Shown here piece by piece: positions 11,195 to 63,930 of a stretch of 64,000 bases of DNA; the stretch's first letter is position 1; the number at the start of each line of letters is the position of its first letter. The stretch covers positions 54,539 to 118,538 of the IMG/VR virus record IMGVR_UViG_3300030060_004050. One strand, written 5' to 3'. The position numbers and the translations under genes were made by a program. The DNA comes from a virus. Below the pieces are notes generated by a model. That model saw only the letters and a program-made list of their open reading frames with translations, did no database searches and was not told the origin of the DNA.

Positions 11195-11746
11195 ATGAAC
11201 CTATACGAAAAATACAATTGGTTATTTAATGAATCTTCTAAACCCATTCCGGGTTTGATAAAAAGATACTATGATCAATACCAAGATGGAACCCCCGTTC
11301 CCGATGGATTTGTATATGATTGGAATAGAGATCAGAGTGTAAAAGTTCCATCTCAAGAAGAAGAGGAAGATGGGGGTGATGTGGAGGTTCCGAACATTCC
11401 ATACGGAGAATGGCTTGCTGAGAAACCGTTTGATTATAACAGAGACGGAGTAGTAGATGAAAACGATTATAAAATCTGGTCATTGAATCAATATGGATAC
11501 AGTATAATTGATCTTGTTTTAATGTTCCCAGACTGGTTCCCAAATGTAATCTACTATGATCCATCTATGGGTAGAGATGTTTTCCCGGTGCAAACTCCCA
11601 ATGGAATTCAAATAGTAATGGCTCCATTTAATAATAACGAAGCAGGGTATTATGTAATAGGACAGGATGGGTCCTTAATTCCACTTGAAGAGTACTTTGC
11701 TCCATTCCAATATGAGTTAGATGTAGAAGAGGCAGGACAACCATGA
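11195..11746 (+). CDS. Small virion-associated protein with one dockerin-type calcium loop
   Basis: The 183-residue protein begins MNLYEKYNWLFNES, nearly the same as the start of the gene at 5948, suggesting a shared targeting signal. Residues of about 75-100 contain FDYNRDGVVDENDYKIWSLNQYG, a textbook calcium-binding loop (Asp, Asn, Asp at 1, 3, 5; Gly 6; Asp 12) followed by the helix seen in dockerin half-repeats. The remainder is aromatic and acidic. No enzymatic motif is visible. It starts four bases after the tube-like gene and its stop overlaps the next start (ATGA). Confidence 0.5.
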   Translation: MNLYEKYNWLFNESSKPIPGLIKRYYDQYQDGTPVPDGFVYDWNRDQSVKVPSQEEEEDGGDVEVPNIPYGEWLAEKPFDYNRDGVVDENDYKIWSLNQYGYSIIDLVLMFPDWFPNVIYYDPSMGRDVFPVQTPNGIQIVMAPFNNNEAGYYVIGQDGSLIPLEEYFAPFQYELDVEEAGQP

Positions 11747-30538: not shown

Positions 30539-31420
30539 ATGTTATGTTTTCCAAGATTAGGTGATTACGGTTACTTAGGTAACGCAATGTTCCAGTACTC
30601 TGCTCTACTCGGTATTGCAGATAAACATGGATACACCCCCGTTTATGATTATGAAAAAACAGGGACAATGGTTACCCTTCATGATCATTTTAAGATTACA
30701 AAGGCAGAGCAACTTGAACAATGGAAGCAAGTTCACGGAATGAAGAGAGTTTGGAAAGAACCTCACTTTAATTTTTCCGAATATGCATTTATGGACAAAC
30801 CTCCGCTATCAAGCGAAAGAAAAAAGAAACTTGGTATTGTTGACGAGTCTCCTCCTATCGTTCGAGAAGACACAGGACTAAATGGATACTTCCAGTCAGA
30901 GAAGTATTTCAATCACATTGAAGATACAATTCGATCCGAGTTTACCTTTAGTGATGAGGTGCGGGAACAATGTGAAGAAACAATCAAACCCATTAGAGAG
31001 AAGGACAAGATTGTAGTGTCCTTACATGTTCGATTAGGAGACTACAAGATGCTCGAACATGTCTATGTCCCTCTGGTAAAAACTGATTATTATCAAAAGG
31101 CAATCGCTTACCTATCAAATGAATTTGGTGAGGACAACCTACACTTTATTGTTTTCTCAGATGAACCTCAAATTTGCAAGCAGATTTTTCAAGGAGAGAA
31201 TATTGCTTACGCTGAAGGTGGATCTCAGACTCAAGATATGTGCCTGATGTCAATGTGTGATCACAACATCATCGCTAACAGTTCATTCAGTTGGTGGGGT
31301 GCATGGTTAAACAACAACAAGGACAAGAAGGTAATTGCTCCACACGGTTGGTTCCAACCAAATGAAAAAGATCCAAAGAACACTAAGGATCTATACTGTG
31401 AAGATTGGATTATTCTGTGA
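30539..31420 (+). CDS. GT11 fucosyltransferase-like enzyme
   Basis: The 293-residue protein shows the GT11 (alpha-1,2-fucosyltransferase) signatures: GYLGNAMFQYSALLG near the start, SLHVRLGDY with the donor-binding Arg, IVFSDEP and NSSFSWWGAWLN. GT11 enzymes move L-fucose, and some relatives move its 3-deoxy form colitose, from GDP-sugar. Such a donor is exactly what the cassette at 24686-27757 would supply. GGAGG is present just before ATG 30539. The stop overlaps the next start (GTGA). Confidence 0.88.
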   Translation: MLCFPRLGDYGYLGNAMFQYSALLGIADKHGYTPVYDYEKTGTMVTLHDHFKITKAEQLEQWKQVHGMKRVWKEPHFNFSEYAFMDKPPLSSERKKKLGIVDESPPIVREDTGLNGYFQSEKYFNHIEDTIRSEFTFSDEVREQCEETIKPIREKDKIVVSLHVRLGDYKMLEHVYVPLVKTDYYQKAIAYLSNEFGEDNLHFIVFSDEPQICKQIFQGENIAYAEGGSQTQDMCLMSMCDHNIIANSSFSWWGAWLNNNKDKKVIAPHGWFQPNEKDPKNTKDLYCEDWIIL

Positions 31421-33027
31421 AAAACATACTCTCATTTTATGGTGGACATGATGCATCTGTTACGTTTGTTGATAAGCAAGACAGGGTAAGAGTTATCGAA
31501 GTAGAGCGATATGTTAAGCAACGCTACGCTGCTTTCTCTTCATATCAAAACAAAAGATCTTTTGGTATTAGTGATGCGAAGAGATTAGATTTTCTAAATT
31601 ACTTGTATGACTCTGTTTTCGATCCGGAAAAGATCGACACTATTTTATACATGGGTTTGTCTGAAGATGATGCAAATCTAATTAAAAAGTTTTTTCCTAA
31701 TGCAGAGTTTAAACACATGAATCATCATCGTTCACATGCCTATTGTGGACATTACCAGTCGGGTTTTGAAAAGAGTATTATATTTTCAGTAGATGGTGGT
31801 GGTGTGGATCATGGACAGACGGTAACCACAAAAGTATTTTTAGGCAACGGAAACGACATCGAGGAACTTGAAGATTGTAAAATTGATTTCGGAACCGCCT
31901 ACATGTCAGTTGGTAAATATATTTCTGAAATCAAAAAAAAGCAAGACGACTCCCTTGCCTGGGCAGGAAAAATCATGGGACTTTGTGCCTATGGTGAAGT
32001 AAGAGAAGAATGGGTAGAACCCATGACAAGGTTCTATAAAACAATATCAGAAAAAACACATGAAAATATTGCATCTTCTGATCAAAGTTTCGGATCTGAA
32101 ATCATTCAAGAACTGTTTCCAGACACAGTTCTAACTCAAGACTGTCTAAAGGGTAAAGACAGTTATGATCTTGCTGCAACCAGTCAACATGTGTTTGAAG
32201 AACTTTTGTTCGAGTGGATGGAACCATATGTTAACGAATACAGAAGAGATGTTGTTTTAGTTGGTGGGTGTGCATTAAACGTTCTATACAATCAGAGATT
32301 CTCTGAGTATATGTTTGAAAAGAACATGAATAAACTGTACGTTCCACCAAACCCCAATGACTGTGGATTGTCTCTCGGATTTTTCCTAGAGGAGTGTCCT
32401 GAGTTAAGAGGTAAAGATTTCGTGTACGAAGGAATTGAACTCCTAGACAGAGACGATCTACAAAAGCATGTTTCTGAAAGAAACGCGAAAGAAGTCAATA
32501 CATCAGATATTGTTGACATTATCAAACGAGGAGAAATTGTTGGTTTGGTATATGGTGACTCTGAGATCGGACCTAGAGCATTAGGAAACAGAAGTATTAT
32601 CTGTGATCCCTCTTTCGAAAACATGAAGGACATCTTGAACAAGAAAGTAAAGTTTAGAGAGTGGTACAGACCTTTTGCCCCTGTTTCAATGCTACACCAC
32701 TCCAACACATACTTCCACAAGGTGTTCGAATCAAACTACATGAGTTTTGCACCAAAGGTTAAAGAAGAGTATCAGGAAAAACTTCGTGCCATTACTCATG
32801 TTGATGAAACCTCTAGACTACAAACTGTTTGTAAAGTCGGAGGACACCGAGGGTTCATGGACATTCTAGAGGAGTTGAATCGTAGAGAAGAGATCCCTGT
32901 CATTCTAAACACATCTTTTAATATCAGAGGGTATCCGATCCTCACAACGATAGAGGACGCACTTCATGTTCTGGATAATACTGAATTGGATCATGTTGTG
33001 GTAGAGGGTTACTTGTTTTCAAAATGA
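31417..33027 (+). CDS. Carbamoyltransferase (NodU/CmcH family)
   Basis: The 536-residue protein has the two-domain layout of sugar/antibiotic O-carbamoyltransferases: ILSFYGGHDASV at the start, the HHRSHAYCGHY metal site, IFSVDGGGVDHG, LVGGCALN, then GDSEIGPRALGNRSI in the YrdC-like half and a C-terminal EIPVILNTSFN. It should carbamoylate a hydroxyl group, here presumably on a sugar made or transferred by its neighbours. I start at GTG 31417 (KNILSFYGG), which overlaps the GT11 stop; an upstream TTG is less likely. Confidence 0.88.
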   Translation: MKNILSFYGGHDASVTFVDKQDRVRVIEVERYVKQRYAAFSSYQNKRSFGISDAKRLDFLNYLYDSVFDPEKIDTILYMGLSEDDANLIKKFFPNAEFKHMNHHRSHAYCGHYQSGFEKSIIFSVDGGGVDHGQTVTTKVFLGNGNDIEELEDCKIDFGTAYMSVGKYISEIKKKQDDSLAWAGKIMGLCAYGEVREEWVEPMTRFYKTISEKTHENIASSDQSFGSEIIQELFPDTVLTQDCLKGKDSYDLAATSQHVFEELLFEWMEPYVNEYRRDVVLVGGCALNVLYNQRFSEYMFEKNMNKLYVPPNPNDCGLSLGFFLEECPELRGKDFVYEGIELLDRDDLQKHVSERNAKEVNTSDIVDIIKRGEIVGLVYGDSEIGPRALGNRSIICDPSFENMKDILNKKVKFREWYRPFAPVSMLHHSNTYFHKVFESNYMSFAPKVKEEYQEKLRAITHVDETSRLQTVCKVGGHRGFMDILEELNRREEIPVILNTSFNIRGYPILTTIEDALHVLDNTELDHVVVEGYLFSK

Positions 33028-52020: not shown

Positions 52021-52312
52021 ATTCAACAGGTGGTCTTTTCATCGATCCGAGGAACCAGTCTTCCCCAATCATGGCATCTGCTCCACCCATGTCATTTCCA
52101 AAATCAGATACACTTTGCGACGATGCTGGTCTATATCTTTGATCGTGAGTTAATCCTTTTCCATACTTGAACATGGTTAAAAGATCTGGATCAAAAGGAA
52201 AGTCTTGTCCTTGGGGTGTAATTTCTTGATTTGGTTCTGCGTCCGCGCCGCCTGGATCCATTGGGCGAAATTTACGTCCTCTTAGTTTAATGTAGTCTGA
52301 TCTCTTTCTCAT
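52019..52312 (-). CDS. Small hypothetical protein
   Basis: The 97-residue product has a basic start (MRKRSDYIKLRGRKFRP), a Pro/Gly/acidic middle and a short DDWFLG-like end (MIGEDWFLGSMKRPP). It is not recognised. It is coupled to the PAP2-like gene by an ATGA overlap and ends at the shared terminator. A virion role is possible because marine T4-like phages carry similar small Gly/Pro proteins, but there is no direct evidence. Confidence 0.5.
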   Translation of the reverse strand: MRKRSDYIKLRGRKFRPMDPGGADAEPNQEITPQGQDFPFDPDLLTMFKYGKGLTHDQRYRPASSQSVSDFGNDMGGADAMIGEDWFLGSMKRPPVE

Positions 52313-52893
52313 TCTTTACTTTCCTTAAAGTTGCCAAACAAAACATGTGCTAATGTTTGTCCTGCTAAATTATCTGTCGGGTAATTGTTTGAGGAGAGCA
52401 ATCTAGAATTTGCTATCTTATTTGCCATTTCCATAAACACCTCTTTATATAGGGGAAACTGATCGGCAAAGTATAATGAAAAGAACATGGATTCCGTCGA
52501 GTGACCTGATGGATATGATCCGTTAAACTCCGATTGAACTGTTTCCTTTAATTCAAATCCTTGCTTTTCTGCGACAACAATAGGTCTATTCCTAGCATGT
52601 TTTGTTTTTTCTAGAAGAACTATGCTTTTCAAATCTTCCGCTATCTCAAAAATTTCTTGCTCGTTTACGTTTAGCGAAAATTGATCAACAAGATGTAAGT
52701 ACTGATTAAGAATATCACCATTATAGTTTTCAATAATATTTACATCATCCTGCTTTAATCTCCTACCCACATTTTCCAACAACTCCAGTTCAACGCTAGT
52801 TTTTTCACTAGAGTCTTCTGGAGGAGACATTAACAGGGAAGTTGTGTTCACCTGTAGTCTCTTCAAATGAATGTTGTTATGGATGTTGTTCAT
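52309..52893 (-). CDS. PAP2-type phosphatase-like protein with altered nucleophile
   Basis: The 194-residue protein shows the three acid-phosphatase motifs: KTKHARNRP (KX6RP), YPSGHSTES (PSGH) and SRLLSSNNYPTD (SRX5HX3D). In the third motif the nucleophilic His is Asn. Active PAP2 enzymes remove phosphate from lipids or small molecules; with this change it may bind without turnover. No signal peptide is seen. I start at ATG 52893, five bases after a late-type box CATAAATA; a longer frame to 52917 would contain that box. Confidence 0.75.
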   Translation of the reverse strand: MNNIHNNIHLKRLQVNTTSLLMSPPEDSSEKTSVELELLENVGRRLKQDDVNIIENYNGDILNQYLHLVDQFSLNVNEQEIFEIAEDLKSIVLLEKTKHARNRPIVVAEKQGFELKETVQSEFNGSYPSGHSTESMFFSLYFADQFPLYKEVFMEMANKIANSRLLSSNNYPTDNLAGQTLAHVLFGNFKESKE

Positions 52894-52898
52894 AAAAA

Positions 52899-52906
52899 TA
52901 TTTATG
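52899..52906 (-). promoter_or_regulatory. Late-type box CATAAATA with leaderless geometry
   Basis: On the minus strand CATAAATA is followed by TTTTT and ATG 52893, so the T4-like late start site falls on the A of the start codon. This matches the layout before uvsW. Confidence 0.5.
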
Positions 52907-52946
52907 TGTATTGACACCTACATATTGTAGATAAAGGAGAATTACG

Positions 52947-53539: not shown

Positions 53540-53803
53540 TTATCGAGGTAACTCTTTAGCAATTGACATCATCCTGTTTGTAGACCATTCTCTGTTCTTG
53601 TCTACGTTATCGATGATGTTGTCGATCTCTCTTCTGAGTTCTCTCTCGTTGCGTTGTCTCATTTCTCTCTCACTTGAGATGGTTCTCTCTAGTGTAGATA
53701 CTTTATGACTGATTTTCCAAACAAATCCAATCAGGGTGAACACGGCGGTGCCTAGTGCTGTCATTACGAAATCCATGAAGTAGTTGCTTAATGCATCTTC
53801 CAT
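53540..53803 (-). CDS. Membrane-anchored coiled-coil protein (possible holin/antiholin or spanin-like)
   Basis: The 87-residue product has one N-terminal membrane segment (FVMTALGTAVFTLIGFVWKI) followed by a highly charged helix with heptads (KVSTLERTISSEREMRQRNERELRREI). This is the layout of inner-membrane spanins and of some small phage membrane proteins. It is the last gene of a minus-strand group with a 3-TM protein and a lipoprotein. AAGGAG precedes ATG 53803. Confidence 0.6.
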   Translation of the reverse strand: MEDALSNYFMDFVMTALGTAVFTLIGFVWKISHKVSTLERTISSEREMRQRNERELRREIDNIIDNVDKNREWSTNRMMSIAKELPR

Positions 53804-53851: not shown

Positions 53852-54451
53852 TCAACCTGTCCAATTTGTTAATAAAATACCAAGATCTTCTGCATCCACG
53901 ATACCGTCTGAGTTGAAGTCTGCTGCTCCATCCATGCCCCATTGAGAGAACAGCATACCTAAGTCCCACCCGTCGATGTCACCATCGTCGTTGAAGTCAC
54001 CCCATACTTGTATCTCCACGGAATAAATCCAGTCCCTTGTGAATGGTATACCGCTTGCAAGAGCCGCATCTGTGTAGAACACAACTTGACCGTCATCAGC
54101 ACACACTTCATAATCTGTATCATGTTGTGTGATTGTGTATTCACCTTTCGGGACGGTAACGTAGTGTCTGTATTTAATGCGTCTTGCTTGAGGGGTTTGA
54201 TTCGTAAACGTGACTGTGCCCTGCGAGTCGAATAGGTTGGTTACAATTATTCGGTTATCAATGTAGTCAACTTCAATTACACGGGTATCGCTTACAACCC
54301 CACCAGTGGTATGCAGATATCCGTTTTCTAGTTCAAGTCTATGCACATCGAAGGAAACCAATGGCGGGGGACAAGAATCTTGTGCTGTGGTGGGGGTTGT
54401 TGTGAAAAAAACAAAGTATAATAAACTAGTTGAGAGTATCCTCTGCTTCAT
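53852..54451 (-). CDS. Secreted protein with tandem dockerin-type repeats
   Basis: The 199-residue protein has a signal peptide (MKQRILSTSLLYFVFFTTTPTTAQ), then a beta-rich domain of about 110 residues (IEVDYIDNRIIVTNLF, GTVTFTNQTP). The C-terminus holds two EF-type loops, DFNDDGDIDGWDLGMLFSQWG and DFNSDGIVDAEDLGILLTNW. Each has Asp/Asn at 1, 3, 5, Gly 6 and Asp 12, with the helix of dockerin half-repeats. Such endings are typical of secreted planctomycete proteins. I use ATG 54451 because it starts the signal peptide. It overlaps the upstream lipoprotein gene. Confidence 0.7.
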   Translation of the reverse strand: MKQRILSTSLLYFVFFTTTPTTAQDSCPPPLVSFDVHRLELENGYLHTTGGVVSDTRVIEVDYIDNRIIVTNLFDSQGTVTFTNQTPQARRIKYRHYVTVPKGEYTITQHDTDYEVCADDGQVVFYTDAALASGIPFTRDWIYSVEIQVWGDFNDDGDIDGWDLGMLFSQWGMDGAADFNSDGIVDAEDLGILLTNWTG

Positions 54452-54686
54452 CTTTCGCTGCTTTCTTGGTGGGTTTAAAAGCCGCATACGTTAAATATAT
54501 AGCACCCAAAAGCAACGGAGAATAAAATAACCAAAAGGCAGTGGAAGAAGTTTTTTCAATTTGAGCGTTATTCTTTACGGTGTGGACTTCAGGAATCGCA
54601 CCATGCTGTTGAGCATTTCCGTCAACTCGCATATAACCACTGCAAGATGTCATGAGTAAACTACAGACTAGAATCAAACTTCTCAT
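54426..54686 (-). CDS. Candidate unimolecular spanin (lipoprotein plus TM)
   Basis: The 86-residue product begins with a lipoprotein signal (MRSLILVCSLLMTSCSG; Cys15 as lipidation site). A short hydrophilic part follows, then a membrane segment (FWLFYSPLLLGAIYLTYAAF) and a charged tail. A lipid anchor in the outer membrane plus a C-terminal inner-membrane helix is the layout of u-spanins such as T1 gp11, which fuse the two membranes at lysis. At 86 residues it is short for that job. It is coupled to the 3-TM gene by an ATGA overlap. Confidence 0.55.
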   Translation of the reverse strand: MRSLILVCSLLMTSCSGYMRVDGNAQQHGAIPEVHTVKNNAQIEKTSSTAFWLFYSPLLLGAIYLTYAAFKPTKKAAKDEAEDTLN

Positions 54687-55126
54687 CGTCTAGAACTCTT
54701 TCCTACTGCTTGTCCAAAGTAGAAACCTACAATCGCCAGCAGAACCTGTCTGTTCTCTTCGGTGAATAAGTAACCATAAATTTCATGGAAGGTTACTCTT
54801 TGACCTCCACCAATACCAAGGAATGAACCCTCAGTTTCAGTAATCTCCACCACTGTTGGAATTCCAAAGAAAGGAAGAATAAACGGAGCCATTATTGTAC
54901 CAAACAATATGGTAACTACAATAAGTCTCCTAACGGTTTTTCCCGCCTCGATTCCGACTCTAGCAACGGCAAGATCTTGACTCTCATCTTGTCTCTTGCT
55001 TGCACCGATCATCCGCTCGAAGATCTCTTTTTGATCTTGTCGTTTTTCTGCCATAAACTTAAAAAGGAAGCCAGTTAAACTGCTACCAATCAAAGTAAGA
55101 AATTCTGGTGTTAGAAATGCACTCAT
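54683..55126 (-). CDS. Three-TM membrane protein, candidate holin
   Basis: The 147-residue protein has three hydrophobic segments: EFLTLIGSSLTGFLFKFM, LIVVTILFGTIMAPFILPFFG and VLLAIVGFYFGQAV. A charged helix with KRQDQKEIFERMIGASKRQ lies between the first two. Such three-TM proteins fit class I holins, including the 3-TM holin group of gene-transfer agents. It sits upstream of the candidate spanin, so a lysis role is plausible. ATGA overlaps couple it on both sides. No sequence-level proof is visible. Confidence 0.55.
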   Translation of the reverse strand: MSAFLTPEFLTLIGSSLTGFLFKFMAEKRQDQKEIFERMIGASKRQDESQDLAVARVGIEAGKTVRRLIVVTILFGTIMAPFILPFFGIPTVVEITETEGSFLGIGGGQRVTFHEIYGYLFTEENRQVLLAIVGFYFGQAVGKSSRR

Positions 55127-57137: not shown

Positions 57138-57974
57138 TCAGCCTTCTCGCTGCATCCTACGACGATTCTTTTCTCTTTCCTGTGCAACGTCAATTTCACG
57201 TTCGTGCTTTGTCCTGATTCTTTCGTTTTCAGCACGATGTCTACGCTTTATTCTTTCTACTGGTGAGGCCTGTTCTCCAAAAATACCAAACGGGGCAGTA
57301 AAGGGTAGGTACTCTAGGTAGGGCGTCATGGTAGAGACGCCTCGGATCAGGGTTGGAATTATACTGTTGTCTGGGTTAATTGGACTTACACCACCACCAC
57401 CGATTGGTTTAACTCCTCCGGGAATTATATCTCCGGGTTGTACTGTAGGTCCAAAGATGTGCGGATACATATCTTCTAAAGTATCTGCTGCTATATCTAA
57501 ATTGTTAAGCATCCACGATCTAAGAAGATCTCTAAATATATTTTGCAACGCATTACCCTGTATTCCTAGTAGATCGAGAACTTGTCTCAGGAATGGGAAT
57601 CTGTTAAACAGTGTATTTGGAATATGGGGACGATAGAAAAATCTCATGATTGATAGAAAATTACCAAAATTAAGCACAAAACCAACCGCTGGATATTGCT
57701 GAATAAATACTTGATAAACTCCAAACATGGGATGTGATGCGTTTGCCGCTCCACCGGCAGGGGGTAGCAACCAAGGCGGGAAGTGGTAACCATGGGTGCT
57801 TAAAGATCCGGGATTCACTCCGGGAGGAACGTCTACTTCTGGTCTTTGAATAAGATCTGGAATACCATTACCGTCTTGATCCCAACTCGGATTTCCAGAA
57901 GTGTTGCCCATCATTTGTTCTAGAATCATGTCTGCTCGGTTTAATGATTCTGCTATTTTACTTAGATCTGACAT
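57138..57974 (-). CDS. Virion-associated protein with targeting-like N-terminus and calcium-type motif
   Basis: The 278-residue product begins MSDLSKIAESLNRADMILEQ, which has prohead-protease-type sites (IAE|S, ILE|Q). A WDQDGNGIPDLIQ motif follows, a thrombospondin-type-3-like calcium loop. The middle has hydrophobic stretches (FVLNFGNFLSIMRFF) and a Gly/Pro part (GGVKPIGGGGVSP); the end is strongly basic (RIKRRHRAENERIRTKHERE). It could be a DNA-associated head protein. It overlaps the polyprotein gene by 17 bases. Confidence 0.5.
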   Translation of the reverse strand: MSDLSKIAESLNRADMILEQMMGNTSGNPSWDQDGNGIPDLIQRPEVDVPPGVNPGSLSTHGYHFPPWLLPPAGGAANASHPMFGVYQVFIQQYPAVGFVLNFGNFLSIMRFFYRPHIPNTLFNRFPFLRQVLDLLGIQGNALQNIFRDLLRSWMLNNLDIAADTLEDMYPHIFGPTVQPGDIIPGGVKPIGGGGVSPINPDNSIIPTLIRGVSTMTPYLEYLPFTAPFGIFGEQASPVERIKRRHRAENERIRTKHEREIDVAQEREKNRRRMQREG

Positions 57975-60672
57975 CTTTAAACTTCTTTCTAAATCTTTCG
58001 ACTCCGCAGGCCTGCCCGGGTGTCATGATTTGATGATATTCTCTTGCCTTAGTTGTTCCATCTTCCATTGCTTCATTTTTTCTAGAAAAACTACGATTGG
58101 AACTCTTAGACTTTACCCTTAAATTCTTATCACCATTATTTAGGGGATTTCGATCTTTGTGATCGACATCTTTACCATCACCGAGACGAACTCTACCCTG
58201 TGCCTCTAGTTTTCTTCGTGCTTTATTTCGACTGCTTCTTTTGTCAATTTGATCTTGCTTACCTTGGTAGTTGTCGTACTCTTTTTTGTAGTTTCTGTCT
58301 TCATTTTTAGGAACACAGTTGGGAACCATCTTTCCGCCTTTTTTCTTCATACCTCTTTGAACATGTGTGTCCCAACACTCAGCAAACAATGATTCAAACT
58401 GTTCGTTTTTTTCCTTGGTTTTCTTCTTCATCTGGTTAATGTACTTACGATACACTGCCGCCTCTGATGTCTTACCCATCTCTCTTGCTCTTTGTTCCAT
58501 TGCAACTGCTGCTTGGATTTTGTGAGCGTGGGATCGATCAGAGGACTTGATTTTACTTACAGACGCCTTTGCTGTTTCAACATCTTTAAATCCCAATCCC
58601 TTGATTGTTCCCTTTGGATTTTCGTCTGTATATAAGTCGGAGTGCTTCTTAGAATTTGCAGGTTGTCCCTTCTTACGAGGGATTCTGGGGTTGTCTTCTT
58701 CTTTGAGTGTTGCTCTGTTTGTCTTACTGCTATATTTGTAATTACCTTTTGACTTACCAGAGTACTTCGCCGCACGATCTTTTGCACGATCCTCGGCGCT
58801 CATTGAGTTTCTTTTCTTACCCTTGTCGGTTAGTTCCTGCGATCCTTTTTTGAGGATTCCTCTTTTCTGAAGAGACGCAGTGGCGATAGCATAGGTCTTG
58901 GATTTAGACCAAGATGGGTTTTTATCTTTGAGTTGATTAACAAGTCTGTCTAGAATATCAGGTTCTGTTAGTAAACGACTCTCCACAACGGTAGGTCTTG
59001 GGCCTCCGCCTCCACCGGGAACCGTGTGAATCGGACCGGGACTGTATGGAACTTCATGAGGATTGTCGATATCGTCAGGACCAGGGATCCTTGGATCGCT
59101 TGGATAAAATGGTTTCTCGCCCCATCCACCAGGCTGACGTTTACCAACTATTGGACCAAAAGGTCTTTTCCAAGATGGAATTAGTCTTACGGGAATCGGT
59201 TGCGAGTGCATCCCACCCGGTCCTTTAAAAACAACCATCCATTCACCAGTGTTTGGATTAAAATAGTAATACCAACCAAACTGAGGTATACCGGGATTAC
59301 CAGAGGTAGGATCGGTTGGATTAAATGGTGAAGGTTGGAAGTATCCTCCCGGACCTGGACCGTCGGACGGTAAGAATTGTTCCTTTACATTTCCACGAAG
59401 TTTAGCGATTCTTTCTCGTTCTTGGGTTCGAATTCCCGGAAGAAGTTTTTGTGCTACCTTTGCAATTCTTGCAGGAGAATACTTCTTCTTTAGTCTCTTC
59501 TCGATTGCCTCTTTTTCAGCAAAACCCAAAGACTGCCAACTTCGGTTCTTAAGCATCTTCTTCTTGAACCCAGTAATAGCAGCCTTTCGTGCCTTCTTCT
59601 TTAAATCCTCAGCACCCTTCATCTTTCGTGCTTTGATTTTTCTACGCATTGATCGACGCTTTGAAGTTCTTCTGGCTGCTCTTGCCATTTTTCTTCTTGC
59701 TTCTTTTGAGAGTTCGTCAAGTTGAGTGGATTCGTTTATCTCTTGGTTTAAACCAATGTTGTCGCCAACATTACCACTGAATGTTCCTGCATTTACTTCG
59801 AGGACATACTTGGCAGGTTTATTTGGCATTCGTGTATTTAGATCATGCGGTTGAAGAGTGGCAATATCAACAATTGTGCCTTCTTCGTTGATCCAAACAA
59901 CGTCGAGAGGAATGTAAGTATTCTTCATCCAGATACCATGGTGATCCTCTTCGTCGAATACGAAAAGCATACCATCTTCATTGTCCATGGACTTTACATC
60001 CATGAGTCCCTTTTCTCTGGTTTCGTCGGTATCTGCTAGTCTAACATTGAATGTCTGCTCACCAAACGAAGCGTATTCTTCTTTCAGTCCCATTCCTTTT
60101 CGGATGGACTTAAAGAGACGAAGTGCAACTCTCTTGTTTACCTTTGCGGGAACACCCTTTATGAATTTTTCAAACTCGTCGTCTACTGCTGCCTTTCTCA
60201 TTTTCGATCCAGACATACCAACGACACCCTCTGCATCAGGATCTCGTTCACCAGCAGACAAGACTTCAAAAACTTCTAAGTCCTTGGTGTATGGTTTCAT
60301 TCTCTTGGTAAATTCGCCTACACGATCACCACCAACCACCATGTATACTTTGGTGTATCCCTCTTTGTATAAAGAGTCTAGTACTTGAAATGGAGTTTTT
60401 GCCGATCTGTCATCGACAATATTGGCTCCTGAAAACATCTTTCGCATAAATAGTACTTTATCCTTGTGCGAAAGAGGATTTTGCTTTTTGTCTTGCGAGT
60501 GGCTGGGATAGATCCTATGTTCCGCTCCTCGCTTTTTTGCTTCTCTTATAACTGTGTTGATGAGAAGTTGGTGCCCCGATGTGGGAGGCTGAAACCTTCC
60601 GAAAGTAAACACCACAGACTTACCTTCAGTCTGTTCCCGAATGTTTGCTTGTATTTCTCGGTATGATTTCAT
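57958..60672 (-). CDS. NMNAT-like / DUF192 / HNH multidomain protein, probably head-packaged
   Basis: The 904-residue protein starts MKSYREIQANIREQ, resembling a T4 capsid-targeting sequence with an IRE|Q site. Domain 1 (about 18-200) is a nucleotidyltransferase: VFTFGRFQPPTSGH (NadM-type GRFQPxxxGH) and GMSGSKMRKA. Domain 2 (about 207-309) is DUF192: GLMDVKSM, GMLFVF, IWMKNTYIPLDVVW. A very basic helical region (about 320-435), a Gly/Pro/Tyr region with GWYYYFNPNTGEWM, and basic repeats follow. The C-terminus has an HNH-type DVDHKDRNPLNNGDKNLR. Internal LKE, LDE and LTE sites suggest processing into pieces. The upstream GTG 60699 was rejected. Confidence 0.75.
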   Translation of the reverse strand: MKSYREIQANIREQTEGKSVVFTFGRFQPPTSGHQLLINTVIREAKKRGAEHRIYPSHSQDKKQNPLSHKDKVLFMRKMFSGANIVDDRSAKTPFQVLDSLYKEGYTKVYMVVGGDRVGEFTKRMKPYTKDLEVFEVLSAGERDPDAEGVVGMSGSKMRKAAVDDEFEKFIKGVPAKVNKRVALRLFKSIRKGMGLKEEYASFGEQTFNVRLADTDETREKGLMDVKSMDNEDGMLFVFDEEDHHGIWMKNTYIPLDVVWINEEGTIVDIATLQPHDLNTRMPNKPAKYVLEVNAGTFSGNVGDNIGLNQEINESTQLDELSKEARRKMARAARRTSKRRSMRRKIKARKMKGAEDLKKKARKAAITGFKKKMLKNRSWQSLGFAEKEAIEKRLKKKYSPARIAKVAQKLLPGIRTQERERIAKLRGNVKEQFLPSDGPGPGGYFQPSPFNPTDPTSGNPGIPQFGWYYYFNPNTGEWMVVFKGPGGMHSQPIPVRLIPSWKRPFGPIVGKRQPGGWGEKPFYPSDPRIPGPDDIDNPHEVPYSPGPIHTVPGGGGGPRPTVVESRLLTEPDILDRLVNQLKDKNPSWSKSKTYAIATASLQKRGILKKGSQELTDKGKKRNSMSAEDRAKDRAAKYSGKSKGNYKYSSKTNRATLKEEDNPRIPRKKGQPANSKKHSDLYTDENPKGTIKGLGFKDVETAKASVSKIKSSDRSHAHKIQAAVAMEQRAREMGKTSEAAVYRKYINQMKKKTKEKNEQFESLFAECWDTHVQRGMKKKGGKMVPNCVPKNEDRNYKKEYDNYQGKQDQIDKRSSRNKARRKLEAQGRVRLGDGKDVDHKDRNPLNNGDKNLRVKSKSSNRSFSRKNEAMEDGTTKAREYHQIMTPGQACGVERFRKKFKDVRSK

Positions 60673-60770
60673 TTTACTTATTGAGATTGGATCACGCACC
60701 CTTTCTTGGTAAGGATTACCTCCACATCGGGGCGGACCAACTCTCCAGTTATTAAGAGATTAACAGGGAA

Positions 60771-61789: not shown

Positions 61790-62995
61790 TCAACCTTTTA
61801 CCCAGTTTTTTGCAGCAGTAAAGTTTTGTCTTGAAAATTCAAGTCTATCGACGAGTTTAAGTGCTTTTGTGCCATATCTGTCGATTGCGACGTATCCTTC
61901 GGGTGCGGTTACGTCAAAACCGTCTCCGCTTCTGATGAAAGTACCGATTGATTTGATTTTTTCGAACTTTCGAACCAAAACAATCTTCGCTTCACCCAAA
62001 AGTGCATGGAGTTTGAACGCCTGATCAATTTTTGCTCCATTTTGTGCGATGAAAGACATGATTTTGTCTTTTTGCTCTTGCTTTCGCTTCTTACCACTCT
62101 CTGATTTCAATTTATCCACCTGAGATTGTAGTTTTTTGTCCATGTAAGCGGCGAAACCCTTTATGTTTCCGGTAGAAACGCCCTGACGAACGTTTGCATT
62201 GATATAAATCTTGATTTCATCGATGATCGACTTGTTTTTAATAAATTTGGTAAGGAAACTTCGGTTTTTGGACAGCAAAGCGTTGATGTTTTTGATAAGT
62301 TTATCGATTTTTGCAACCTCCTTGTTAGTGAGTGTTGCGTTGCCTGAAACATCTTTCAAATATGCATCATCAAACCACACATCGGATGTCTTTTTGAACC
62401 CACTAACGTTAACACCGAACGATGCACTTAGATCTGCGATGCTTTTACCACTATATTTCGTGTGAAAAACGATACCAATCCTTGCTCTCTCTATTCGTTT
62501 TGCAAGATCGGAGTCTTTAGGTACGGCATATGTGATAGTATTGGGTGTAAACGTAATGTGTGGTTCACCATTGATCGACTCTGTACCCAAATCGTCGTTC
62601 ATAAACATCATATCACCTTGGATAATACCATCGAACCCAAGTTTGGGTAGGTGATTAAGTGCAACATGGAGACGATCTGCTAATCCACCGGAGTGGTTTG
62701 CACGAATGTCATCGTGGGTGTAGTTAATTTTAGGTGTCTTGTTAAACAGACTCTTTGTAGCAACAAAGAATTTACCGTTTTCGGGATCCTTACCACAAAA
62801 TATAGCAGGCGCACCGTCCCATTTTACAGTGATATCAACTCCGCTCTTTGAATTTCCGCGAAGCATGTCTACCACGGAGTTCAAAAAGTTCACTGCATTA
62901 GAAACGCCTTTTGCGCCTTCGTTAAAAACAGAATCTTCAATGTGTTCCATATGAAGATTCTTGGATTCCTTCAAATATGTAAGGAAGTTTTTCAT
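61790..62995 (-). CDS. DUF6267-type protein with ligase-like nucleotidyltransferase motifs
   Basis: The 401-residue protein starts MKNFLTYLKESKNLHMEH, a targeting-like segment with LKE|S. It carries covalent nucleotidyltransferase-type motifs: VKWDGAPAIF with candidate lysine 58 (motif I KxDG), FDGIIQGDMMF, and a late PEGYVAIDRYGTKALKLV resembling motifs IV and V of DNA/RNA ligases. A long basic helical insertion sits between them. It may be an RNA/DNA ligase or capping-type enzyme carried in the head. ATG 62995 overlaps the upstream stop; the GTG frame start at 63025 lies inside that gene. Confidence 0.65.
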   Translation of the reverse strand: MKNFLTYLKESKNLHMEHIEDSVFNEGAKGVSNAVNFLNSVVDMLRGNSKSGVDITVKWDGAPAIFCGKDPENGKFFVATKSLFNKTPKINYTHDDIRANHSGGLADRLHVALNHLPKLGFDGIIQGDMMFMNDDLGTESINGEPHITFTPNTITYAVPKDSDLAKRIERARIGIVFHTKYSGKSIADLSASFGVNVSGFKKTSDVWFDDAYLKDVSGNATLTNKEVAKIDKLIKNINALLSKNRSFLTKFIKNKSIIDEIKIYINANVRQGVSTGNIKGFAAYMDKKLQSQVDKLKSESGKKRKQEQKDKIMSFIAQNGAKIDQAFKLHALLGEAKIVLVRKFEKIKSIGTFIRSGDGFDVTAPEGYVAIDRYGTKALKLVDRLEFSRQNFTAAKNWVKG

Positions 62996-63930
62996 CAGTC
63001 CTCCACTTTGGAACCGGCTCTCCACTGCTTACACGACCAGTATCGTGCTTTAGTCTTGGGTCCGGGGTTGTCACAATTATGTCTAGCACGGAAGTTCTTT
63101 CTTCGTTCCGGATCGTCTCGCTTGATCTCCATGTTGGGATCACCGAAACGAACAGTCTTTATATTTCCTGTGCTTGGATCTTTTACATAAACCTTAAACT
63201 TTTTATTCCCACCAGAGTCTCTCATGATTTTGTTGAGAGGACCCTTTTTCTTCTTCTCTTCTTCGAAGATGGGACTGGTGTAAGATTCAGGAAGACGCTT
63301 TCCCTTTGTCGGGGCAGTTGTTCCTATATCTAGTTTCTTAGCACGAATGTCATTTACTTTTGGTGCCTCGGGAACTTCTAGATCAGGTGGTGCAAATTGA
63401 TTGTTCCACTCATAAGCCCACAAAGGCCATATTCCTGACTGCCAAATTTGAGTCATTAAAGTATGATCCTCTTGAGTAAGCACACCATCTCCATTGAAAT
63501 CGTAATAGTAAACATAGTCTGGGGCATATACCCCGGAATCAATAAAACCTTGCAATTGATTCAATCCTCCCTGCCACGATTGATTCGCCTCAAGTCGTAG
63601 TGGGTGTTGAGAATCCATGGGGAGAAGATAAAGGTGATCTTTCCACCAAGATTCGAGATTGACATTCTGTGGTGGTGGATTCGGAACGCCTTGTGACCAT
63701 AACGAAAGAATAAGAGTTAAATCGTTGAATGTAATTTCACCATCACCGTCCCAATCATGTCTGGCGATAGTGAGGGACGAAGGATTTGTGTGTGTCATTA
63801 GTGCTTGAATGACCTGTACTCTATCCCACCACATATGATCACTTGTTCCTTCTGGATAAGGATTCGTTGGAGTCTGCTGTTCGTTTAGGTTAACAGACTC
63901 TTGAAGATAGTTTTGAAAACGAGTACTCAT
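62995..63930 (-). CDS. Virion-associated protein with two dockerin-type loops
   Basis: The 311-residue product begins MSTRFQNYLQESVNLNEQQ, a targeting-like segment with LQE|S and LNE|Q sites. It contains two calcium-type loops, DWDGDGEITFNDLTLILSLW and DFNGDGVLTQEDHTLMTQIW, separated by about 80 residues, each followed by a dockerin-like helix. The C-terminus is a conserved basic domain (KFKVYVKDPSTGNIKTVRFGD, then RARHNCDNPGPKTKARYWSCKQW) seen in marine phage proteins. Head association is inferred. AAAAGGAGAA precedes ATG 63930. Confidence 0.6.
   Translation of the reverse strand: MSTRFQNYLQESVNLNEQQTPTNPYPEGTSDHMWWDRVQVIQALMTHTNPSSLTIARHDWDGDGEITFNDLTLILSLWSQGVPNPPPQNVNLESWWKDHLYLLPMDSQHPLRLEANQSWQGGLNQLQGFIDSGVYAPDYVYYYDFNGDGVLTQEDHTLMTQIWQSGIWPLWAYEWNNQFAPPDLEVPEAPKVNDIRAKKLDIGTTAPTKGKRLPESYTSPIFEEEKKKKGPLNKIMRDSGGNKKFKVYVKDPSTGNIKTVRFGDPNMEIKRDDPERRKNFRARHNCDNPGPKTKARYWSCKQWRAGSKVED

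Follow-up and report, generated by a model that had tools for sequence, protein, structure and literature searches.

Dockerins are an old domain family. The Firmicutes are the phylum in which cellulosomes have their home, and position 11 of each calcium loop is a recognition position in cellulosomal dockerins, where it helps to choose the cohesin. Outside that setting, a cohesin/dockerin complex termed the “Planctosome” was proposed for the Nemodlikiaceae, a freshwater family of Phycisphaerae, its suggested role being to attach peptidases to the outer membrane (PMC6461901). One dockerin-like gene has been reported from a phage, namely gene 40 of Vibrio phage VvAW1, which was found to be dockerin type I-like by BLASTP (PMC3558961). 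A search of the open-access literature, which leaves most subscription papers outside it, returned no phage-encoded planctomycete-type dockerins, no exchange of such dockerins and no baseplate dockerin. Here we describe a phage protein with a putative export signal that ends in a dockerin of planctomycete type, and compare it with these systems.

The virus and the layout of the gene

The window, by which we mean the whole stretch of 64,000 nucleotides that was analyzed, is the final 64 kb of a 118.5-kb IMG/VR record. Markers of T4-like myoviruses were identified (tail sheath, portal, scaffold, a gp23-type capsid protein, UvsX, DNA polymerase and baseplate wedge proteins), with PHROGs 138, 23, 213, 219 and others matched and the gp23-type protein about 55% identical to those of Prochlorococcus phages. 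Judged by this gene content, the phage is a T4-like myovirus. No tRNAs were found in the window, and a promoter and terminator scan gave no matches above chance level. The gene of interest and its protein, designated family A, are laid out as follows.

53852..54451, minus strand: family A coding sequence, 199 aa, a predicted secreted beta-domain protein with a C-terminal dockerin (open reading frame, with a start conserved in relatives)
54383..54451, minus strand: putative Sec signal peptide, residues 1-23, MKQRILSTSLLYFVFFTTTPTTA (read from the sequence)
54008..54373, minus strand: beta-sandwich-like domain, residues about 27-148 (AlphaFold model, 13 sequences)
53855..54001, minus strand: dockerin pair, residues 151-199 (profile, solved-structure and AlphaFold matches)
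53963..53998, minus strand: putative calcium loop 1, DFNDDGDIDGWD, residues 152-163 (sequence)
53885..53920, minus strand: putative calcium loop 2, DFNSDGIVDAED, residues 178-189 (sequence)

The longest possible start, an upstream in-frame ATG, would lengthen the gene to 53852-54487 on the minus strand. The ATG at 54451, giving 199 aa, is the likely start because relatives begin with MKQ at the same place. The N-terminus, MKQRILSTSLLYFVFFTTTPTTAQ, was judged by eye to be an export signal, and relatives retain a hydrophobic N-terminus ending in A-Q-E. The C-terminal dockerin repeat pair is GDFNDDGDIDGWDLGMLFSQWGMDGAADFNSDGIVDAEDLGILLTNWTG; this module terminates at the stop codon, and the protein ends LLTNWTG. 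The sequence-only reading had proposed a signal peptide, a beta domain and two dockerin half-repeats ending LLTNW, and this arrangement is real and lies on the minus strand, the export signal remaining a prediction.

The dockerin module and the beta domain

Both loops of the window protein are canonical for type I dockerins, with D1, N3, D5, G6, D9 and D12 in place. Profile scores for this single protein lay below the model cut-offs, at 19.8 bits (E=9.2e-4; cut-off 22.9 bits) for Pfam Dockerin_1 (PF00404) and 16.6 bits (E=0.0076; cut-off 29 bits) for NCBIfam dockerin_GC (NF041540). The Pfam dockerin cut-off was passed by family A in 8 of 11 related viral records, either alone or with in-frame neighbours. 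Solved cellulosomal dockerins matched the window dockerin at E=2.4e-4 (the CelS dockerin, about 45% identity). An AlphaFold model built from 3 sequences had a pLDDT of 43 and was unusable; it was replaced by a model from 13 relatives with a pLDDT of 79, which shows a beta sandwich followed by two helices, the dockerin part mostly above 90. The best structural match of this model was the dockerin 2y3n_B (Z 8.1, 2.9 Å over 55 residues), followed by the solved dockerin 2ozn (Z 7.3).

Across 12 distinct viral sequences, D1, D5 and D12 are invariant in loop 1, as are D1, N3, D5 and D12 in loop 2, and position 11 is hypervariable in each loop. Within this set of only 12 sequences, the predicted calcium ligands are fixed, and the dockerin columns that vary most include position 11 in both loops. 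The module is not a chance resemblance, because it is conserved in 14 viral contigs, and we consider it almost certain that the window carries a real dockerin of host type.

The beta domain comprises ∼120 residues, for which the 13-sequence model gave a mean pLDDT of about 75-90 from model residue 40 on and poor values earlier. Comparison with CBM3-type sandwiches yielded Z 5.0-5.8, a TM of about 0.35 and 4-12% identity, tied with unrelated sandwiches. This weak likeness to CBM3 is not decisive, since at Z 5-6 the CBM3 and AP2 mu sandwiches are indistinguishable from a generic sandwich. No catalytic signature was seen in the domain.

Relatives of the protein and exchange of the dockerin

Family A was found in 13 further viral contigs (14 in all); the copies that were measured share 50-80% identity with the window protein. 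A viral member at greater distance is suggested by A0A516MFS6, a structure match in BFVD (E=1.5e-12, 28% identity). The full-length protein had no relative in the cellular genomes scanned or among the reference phages of INPHARED. INPHARED likewise held no detected relative of the consensus dockerin, the 87-aa neighbour or the beta-helix-type family described below (the last with no homologue among 50,697 reference phages); note that low-complexity filtering in these searches may conceal short dockerins. In the genomes scanned, the beta domain had relatives in viruses only. Given that no full-length cellular relative was found, the beta domain, unlike the dockerin, appears to be viral.

Across pairs of family A members, identity in the beta domain correlates poorly with identity in the dockerin (r=0.36). 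Nucleotide identity between L023 and L037 is 93-100% along most of the beta domain but 53-76% from the first dockerin codons onward. For L022 and L023 the pattern is reversed, with 92% amino acid identity in the dockerin versus 80% in the beta domain, and the DNA is unrelated immediately past the stop codon. When maximum-likelihood trees were built for the beta domain and the dockerin, the AU test rejected each tree on the data of the other (p=1.3e-4 with dockerin data, about 0 with beta data). Because the identity pattern runs in both directions, faster evolution of one part fails as an explanation. Recombination at the module boundary can explain it, and these comparisons indicate that the dockerin is swapped independently of the rest of the gene. 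An assembly chimera was considered and rejected: although L037 is located at the end of its contig, a break of the same kind occurs in L022, L023 and L033, all of them internal. Separately, five viral contigs (L035, L036, L037, L039 and L040) break within or beside the gene of family A, which is what strains with a common beta domain but different dockerins and flanks would give.

Taxonomy of the dockerin and the probable host link

A profile of the phage dockerins was used to search cellular genomes, and its closest matches were in the order of a Phycisphaera-like MAG. This MAG (G003), the first close match, has about 80 matching dockerin domains. In its order, 28 of 121 genomes matched at E≤1e-10; a phylum-wide planctomycete sample gave 3/294 (1e-8) and a Firmicutes control 1/299 (1e-6). 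Phyla beyond Planctomycetota and Firmicutes were covered by a pattern scan over 84,980 species alone, which returned at least 4 confirmed loci; 3 of those listed were Planctomycetota, and the best among the matches listed (62%) was in a MAG named after Phycisphaera mikurensis. The phage dockerin is up to 66% identical to C-terminal dockerins of this candidate host order (best 65-66%). The dockerins of the order also occupy extreme C-termini, and one ends ILLSNWTG versus ILLTNWTG in the phage.

The sequence-only reading had pointed to planctomycetes, on the strength of a resemblance to their secreted proteins. That link is supported and made sharper, the profile being closest to the Phycisphaera-like order and far weaker in Firmicutes, and the protein search it had called for placed the best cellular matches of the dockerin, among the matches listed, in planctomycetes. 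The resemblance itself holds for the dockerin and not for the beta domain, which was found in viruses only. Of 301 genomes of the same order, 30 have homologues of the second phage family found beside family A in relatives, which is of beta-helix type. When 12 kb of the window were searched for spacer and prophage matches in 400 genomes of the order, only short repeat-like matches came back, and these were judged to be noise; many genomes match the stretch that contains the best of them (32 bp, 94%). On indirect evidence, the host is probably a Phycisphaerales-type planctomycete.

No Pfam cohesin was detected in the dockerin-rich MAG G003, which may be incomplete. Pfam cohesin matches in three related genomes (G383, G359 and G391) were weak.

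Other dockerins in these phages

An ∼830-aa protein with a baseplate-wedge domain and a dockerin near its C-terminus was identified in G001, G410 and G412.

L012 7322-9796: baseplate wedge protein with dockerin near the C-terminus
L046 3119-5611: baseplate wedge protein with dockerin near the C-terminus
L048 3676-6168: baseplate wedge protein with dockerin near the C-terminus

In G001 the wedge-protein dockerin scored 30.3 bits with Dockerin_1, over the Pfam cut-off, and the wedge dockerins of G001 and G410 are 57-60% identical to the best host dockerins. The wedge homologue of the window phage (G000; L014 14114-16306) lacks the dockerin and sits between two other wedge genes. G001 and G410 each have a secreted-type and a baseplate dockerin, and the presumed recognition residues differ between the two; a shared receptor is therefore not evident.

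Half-dockerins occur in a ∼620-650-aa, exported-looking, host-like protein of beta-helix type in five contigs. In six contigs, a member of this protein's family sits immediately upstream of family A. In G410, family A adjoins a further dockerin protein.

L023 7706-9562: ∼620-aa half-dockerin protein with relatives in Phycisphaerales-order genomes
L022 2549-4483: the same
L002 5593-7476: the same
L045 1423-2451: 342-aa protein ending in a dockerin, adjoining family A in G410

Dockerins on the baseplate wedge and on the host-like beta-helix protein of relatives therefore amount to a repertoire. The 342-aa protein has a GDSG motif reminiscent of trypsin-like proteases. A serine-protease reading was rejected, the GDSG motif standing alone and a PDB sequence search matching EF hands only.

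Within the window itself a second candidate was found.

62995..63930, minus strand: dockerin/EF-hand-like protein fused to a DUF5754-like domain, without a signal peptide (Dockerin_1, 23.6 bits)

This score is barely above the Dockerin_1 cut-off, and the protein has two dockerin/EF-hand-like repeats. Its N-terminus, MSTRFQNYLQESVNLNEQQ, resembles the N-termini of several large proteins of phages in which V-E-L-D-E motifs are repeated; the product is possibly a head-packaged protein processed by the prohead protease. A lone EF-hand-like motif, FDYNRDGVVDENDYKI, with a weak dockerin-profile score (E=0.013), was seen at 11195-11746 on the plus strand.

Gene neighbourhood

The family A gene is flanked by three small genes encoding putative membrane-associated products.

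53540..53803, minus strand: 87-aa membrane-anchor and coiled-coil-like protein (gene-neighbourhood clustering)
54426..54686, minus strand: putative lipoprotein of 86 aa, with an LMTSC lipobox (judged by eye) and another hydrophobic stretch (sequence)
54683..55126, minus strand: 147-aa membrane protein, PHROG 38283, of unknown function (PHROG match)

The 87-aa family lies beside or near family A in 6 viral contigs, and its best lysis match was a weak one to an Rz-like spanin (E=0.05). The putative lipoprotein gene lies upstream of family A within one operon-like run, and no convincing family was found for it in Pfam, NCBIfam or PHROG. PHROG 38283 lies near family A in three contigs. The family A protein had no significant lysis-family match in PHROG, Pfam or NCBIfam, and in other relatives its gene has quite different neighbours. 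The earlier placement of the gene in a candidate lysis block, with a role on the envelope at release, was not upheld: no significant lysis-family match was obtained among the neighbours, and the neighbours vary in relatives.

Other genes of the window were recorded in passing. Near family A, in this T4-like phage, 52309-52917 (minus strand) encodes a PAP2-superfamily phosphatase (E=1e-6). A Nol-like carbamoyltransferase (PHROG 1601, E=1e-112) at 31405-33027 (plus strand) is a possible surface-glycan or nucleotide modification gene. The 913-aa product of 57958-60699 (minus strand) is multidomain, with a cytidylyltransferase-like domain at its N-terminus and a segment resembling HNH; it may be a polyprotein that is processed.

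Discussion

We propose that family A is an exported host-mimic that docks to the host envelope and alters the infected-cell surface, a reading to which we give about an even chance. During infection the phage would export the protein into the envelope of its host, a planctomycete and most probably one of the Phycisphaerales. There the dockerin, whose loops are predicted to bind calcium, would copy the C-terminal dockerins of the host and be retained by whatever binds those, either a cohesin-like receptor or a sorting or anchoring machine on the host surface. Once retained, the protein would display its beta domain, which would most likely alter or mask the infected-cell surface so as, for instance, to keep out a second phage or hinder host surface proteins. 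The dockerin would serve as a swappable specificity module, traded among phages so that the beta cargo matches whichever receptor the present host has. Surface docking as the mode of action of the dockerin could as easily be right as wrong; superinfection exclusion as the purpose of the protein is doubtful, though worth naming.

The dockerins on wedge proteins, above the Pfam cut-off in G001 and with the same architecture in G410 and G412, suggest another possibility, in which the protein, either released or mounted on particles, would use its dockerin to help the virion hold the host surface. The N-terminus of family A is of export type, however, which is unusual for T4-like virion proteins, as these are assembled in the cytoplasm; its gene is distant from the tail genes, and the wedge homologue of the window phage has no dockerin. 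We regard this adsorption role as unlikely. A role in lysis, with family A part of a holin-spanin-like block that acts on the envelope at release, would suit the small putative lipoprotein, the 147-aa membrane protein and the 87-aa anchor/coiled-coil protein that recurs in six contigs, yet the missing lysis-family match, the quite different neighbours in other relatives and the lack of a catalytic signature in the beta domain make it improbable.

Two further explanations dispense with a host partner. The gene may be a moron, a captured fragment of a host surface protein in which the calcium-binding domain serves just to stabilise a secreted protein without docking to the host; dockerin-bearing genes are numerous in the presumed hosts, so random capture would be easy. 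Against this, the architecture is kept in fourteen viral contigs, the calcium ligands and core residues have stayed fixed through the exchange and diversification of the module, and dockerins occur on several unrelated proteins of relatives. Passive capture, too, has a small chance of being correct. Alternatively, the dockerin might build a phage-only complex in the envelope or virion. Several phage proteins have dockerins, and a very weak cohesin-like signal (E=0.0037, below cut-off) was obtained in a baseplate protein of G000, but that protein is a clear baseplate wedge subunit (PHROG 219), and no cohesin was matched in seven related phage records, several of them fragments. A phage-encoded partner is very improbable. 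We retain the exported host-mimic as the working interpretation.

Phycisphaerales-type planctomycetes have dozens to more than 100 dockerin-tailed proteins. A phage that copies and swaps this tail, and in relatives also places it on the baseplate, marks the host dockerin system as a surface worth attacking. The phage dockerin, used as bait, is a handle for finding the host receptor, and it ties uncultured T4-like phages to a host group via a feature other than spacers. More speculatively, and with considerable doubt, a group of T4-like phages may exploit the dockerin-based system by which Phycisphaerales assemble their surface, with interchangeable cassettes that recognise the cell when on the tail baseplate and occupy or remodel the same receptors after infection when on exported proteins. 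If that is true, dockerin-receptor specificity is an axis of phage-host coevolution.

Comparison with known systems

The Planctosome resembles the present case as a proposed use of cohesin/dockerin modules in a Phycisphaerae lineage beyond cellulose degradation; it is cellular and hypothetical, and the word “phage” has 0 occurrences in its description (PMC6461901). Gene 40 of VvAW1 is likewise a phage gene with reported dockerin similarity, likened here by description only. VvAW1 differs from the window phage in phage type and host, and module, secretion and exchange were not analyzed there (PMC3558961). With cellulosomal type I/II dockerins (PF00404) the phage dockerin shares the calcium-loop pair and the fold (2y3n, 2ozn), but the linker between its repeats is shorter and there is no cellulosome. 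The nearest named model for Phycisphaerales-type dockerins is NF041540, below whose cut-off the window protein falls; most phage copies end in WTG or WKD.. rather than GC, and some end in Cys. The closest likeness is to the compact C-terminal dockerins of Phycisphaerales type themselves, which are borne by exported proteins and with which the phage module shares a length of about 48-50 residues, loops about 14 residues apart, the DLGxLLxxWG/NWTG core, the C-terminal position and 60-66% identity to the best of them.
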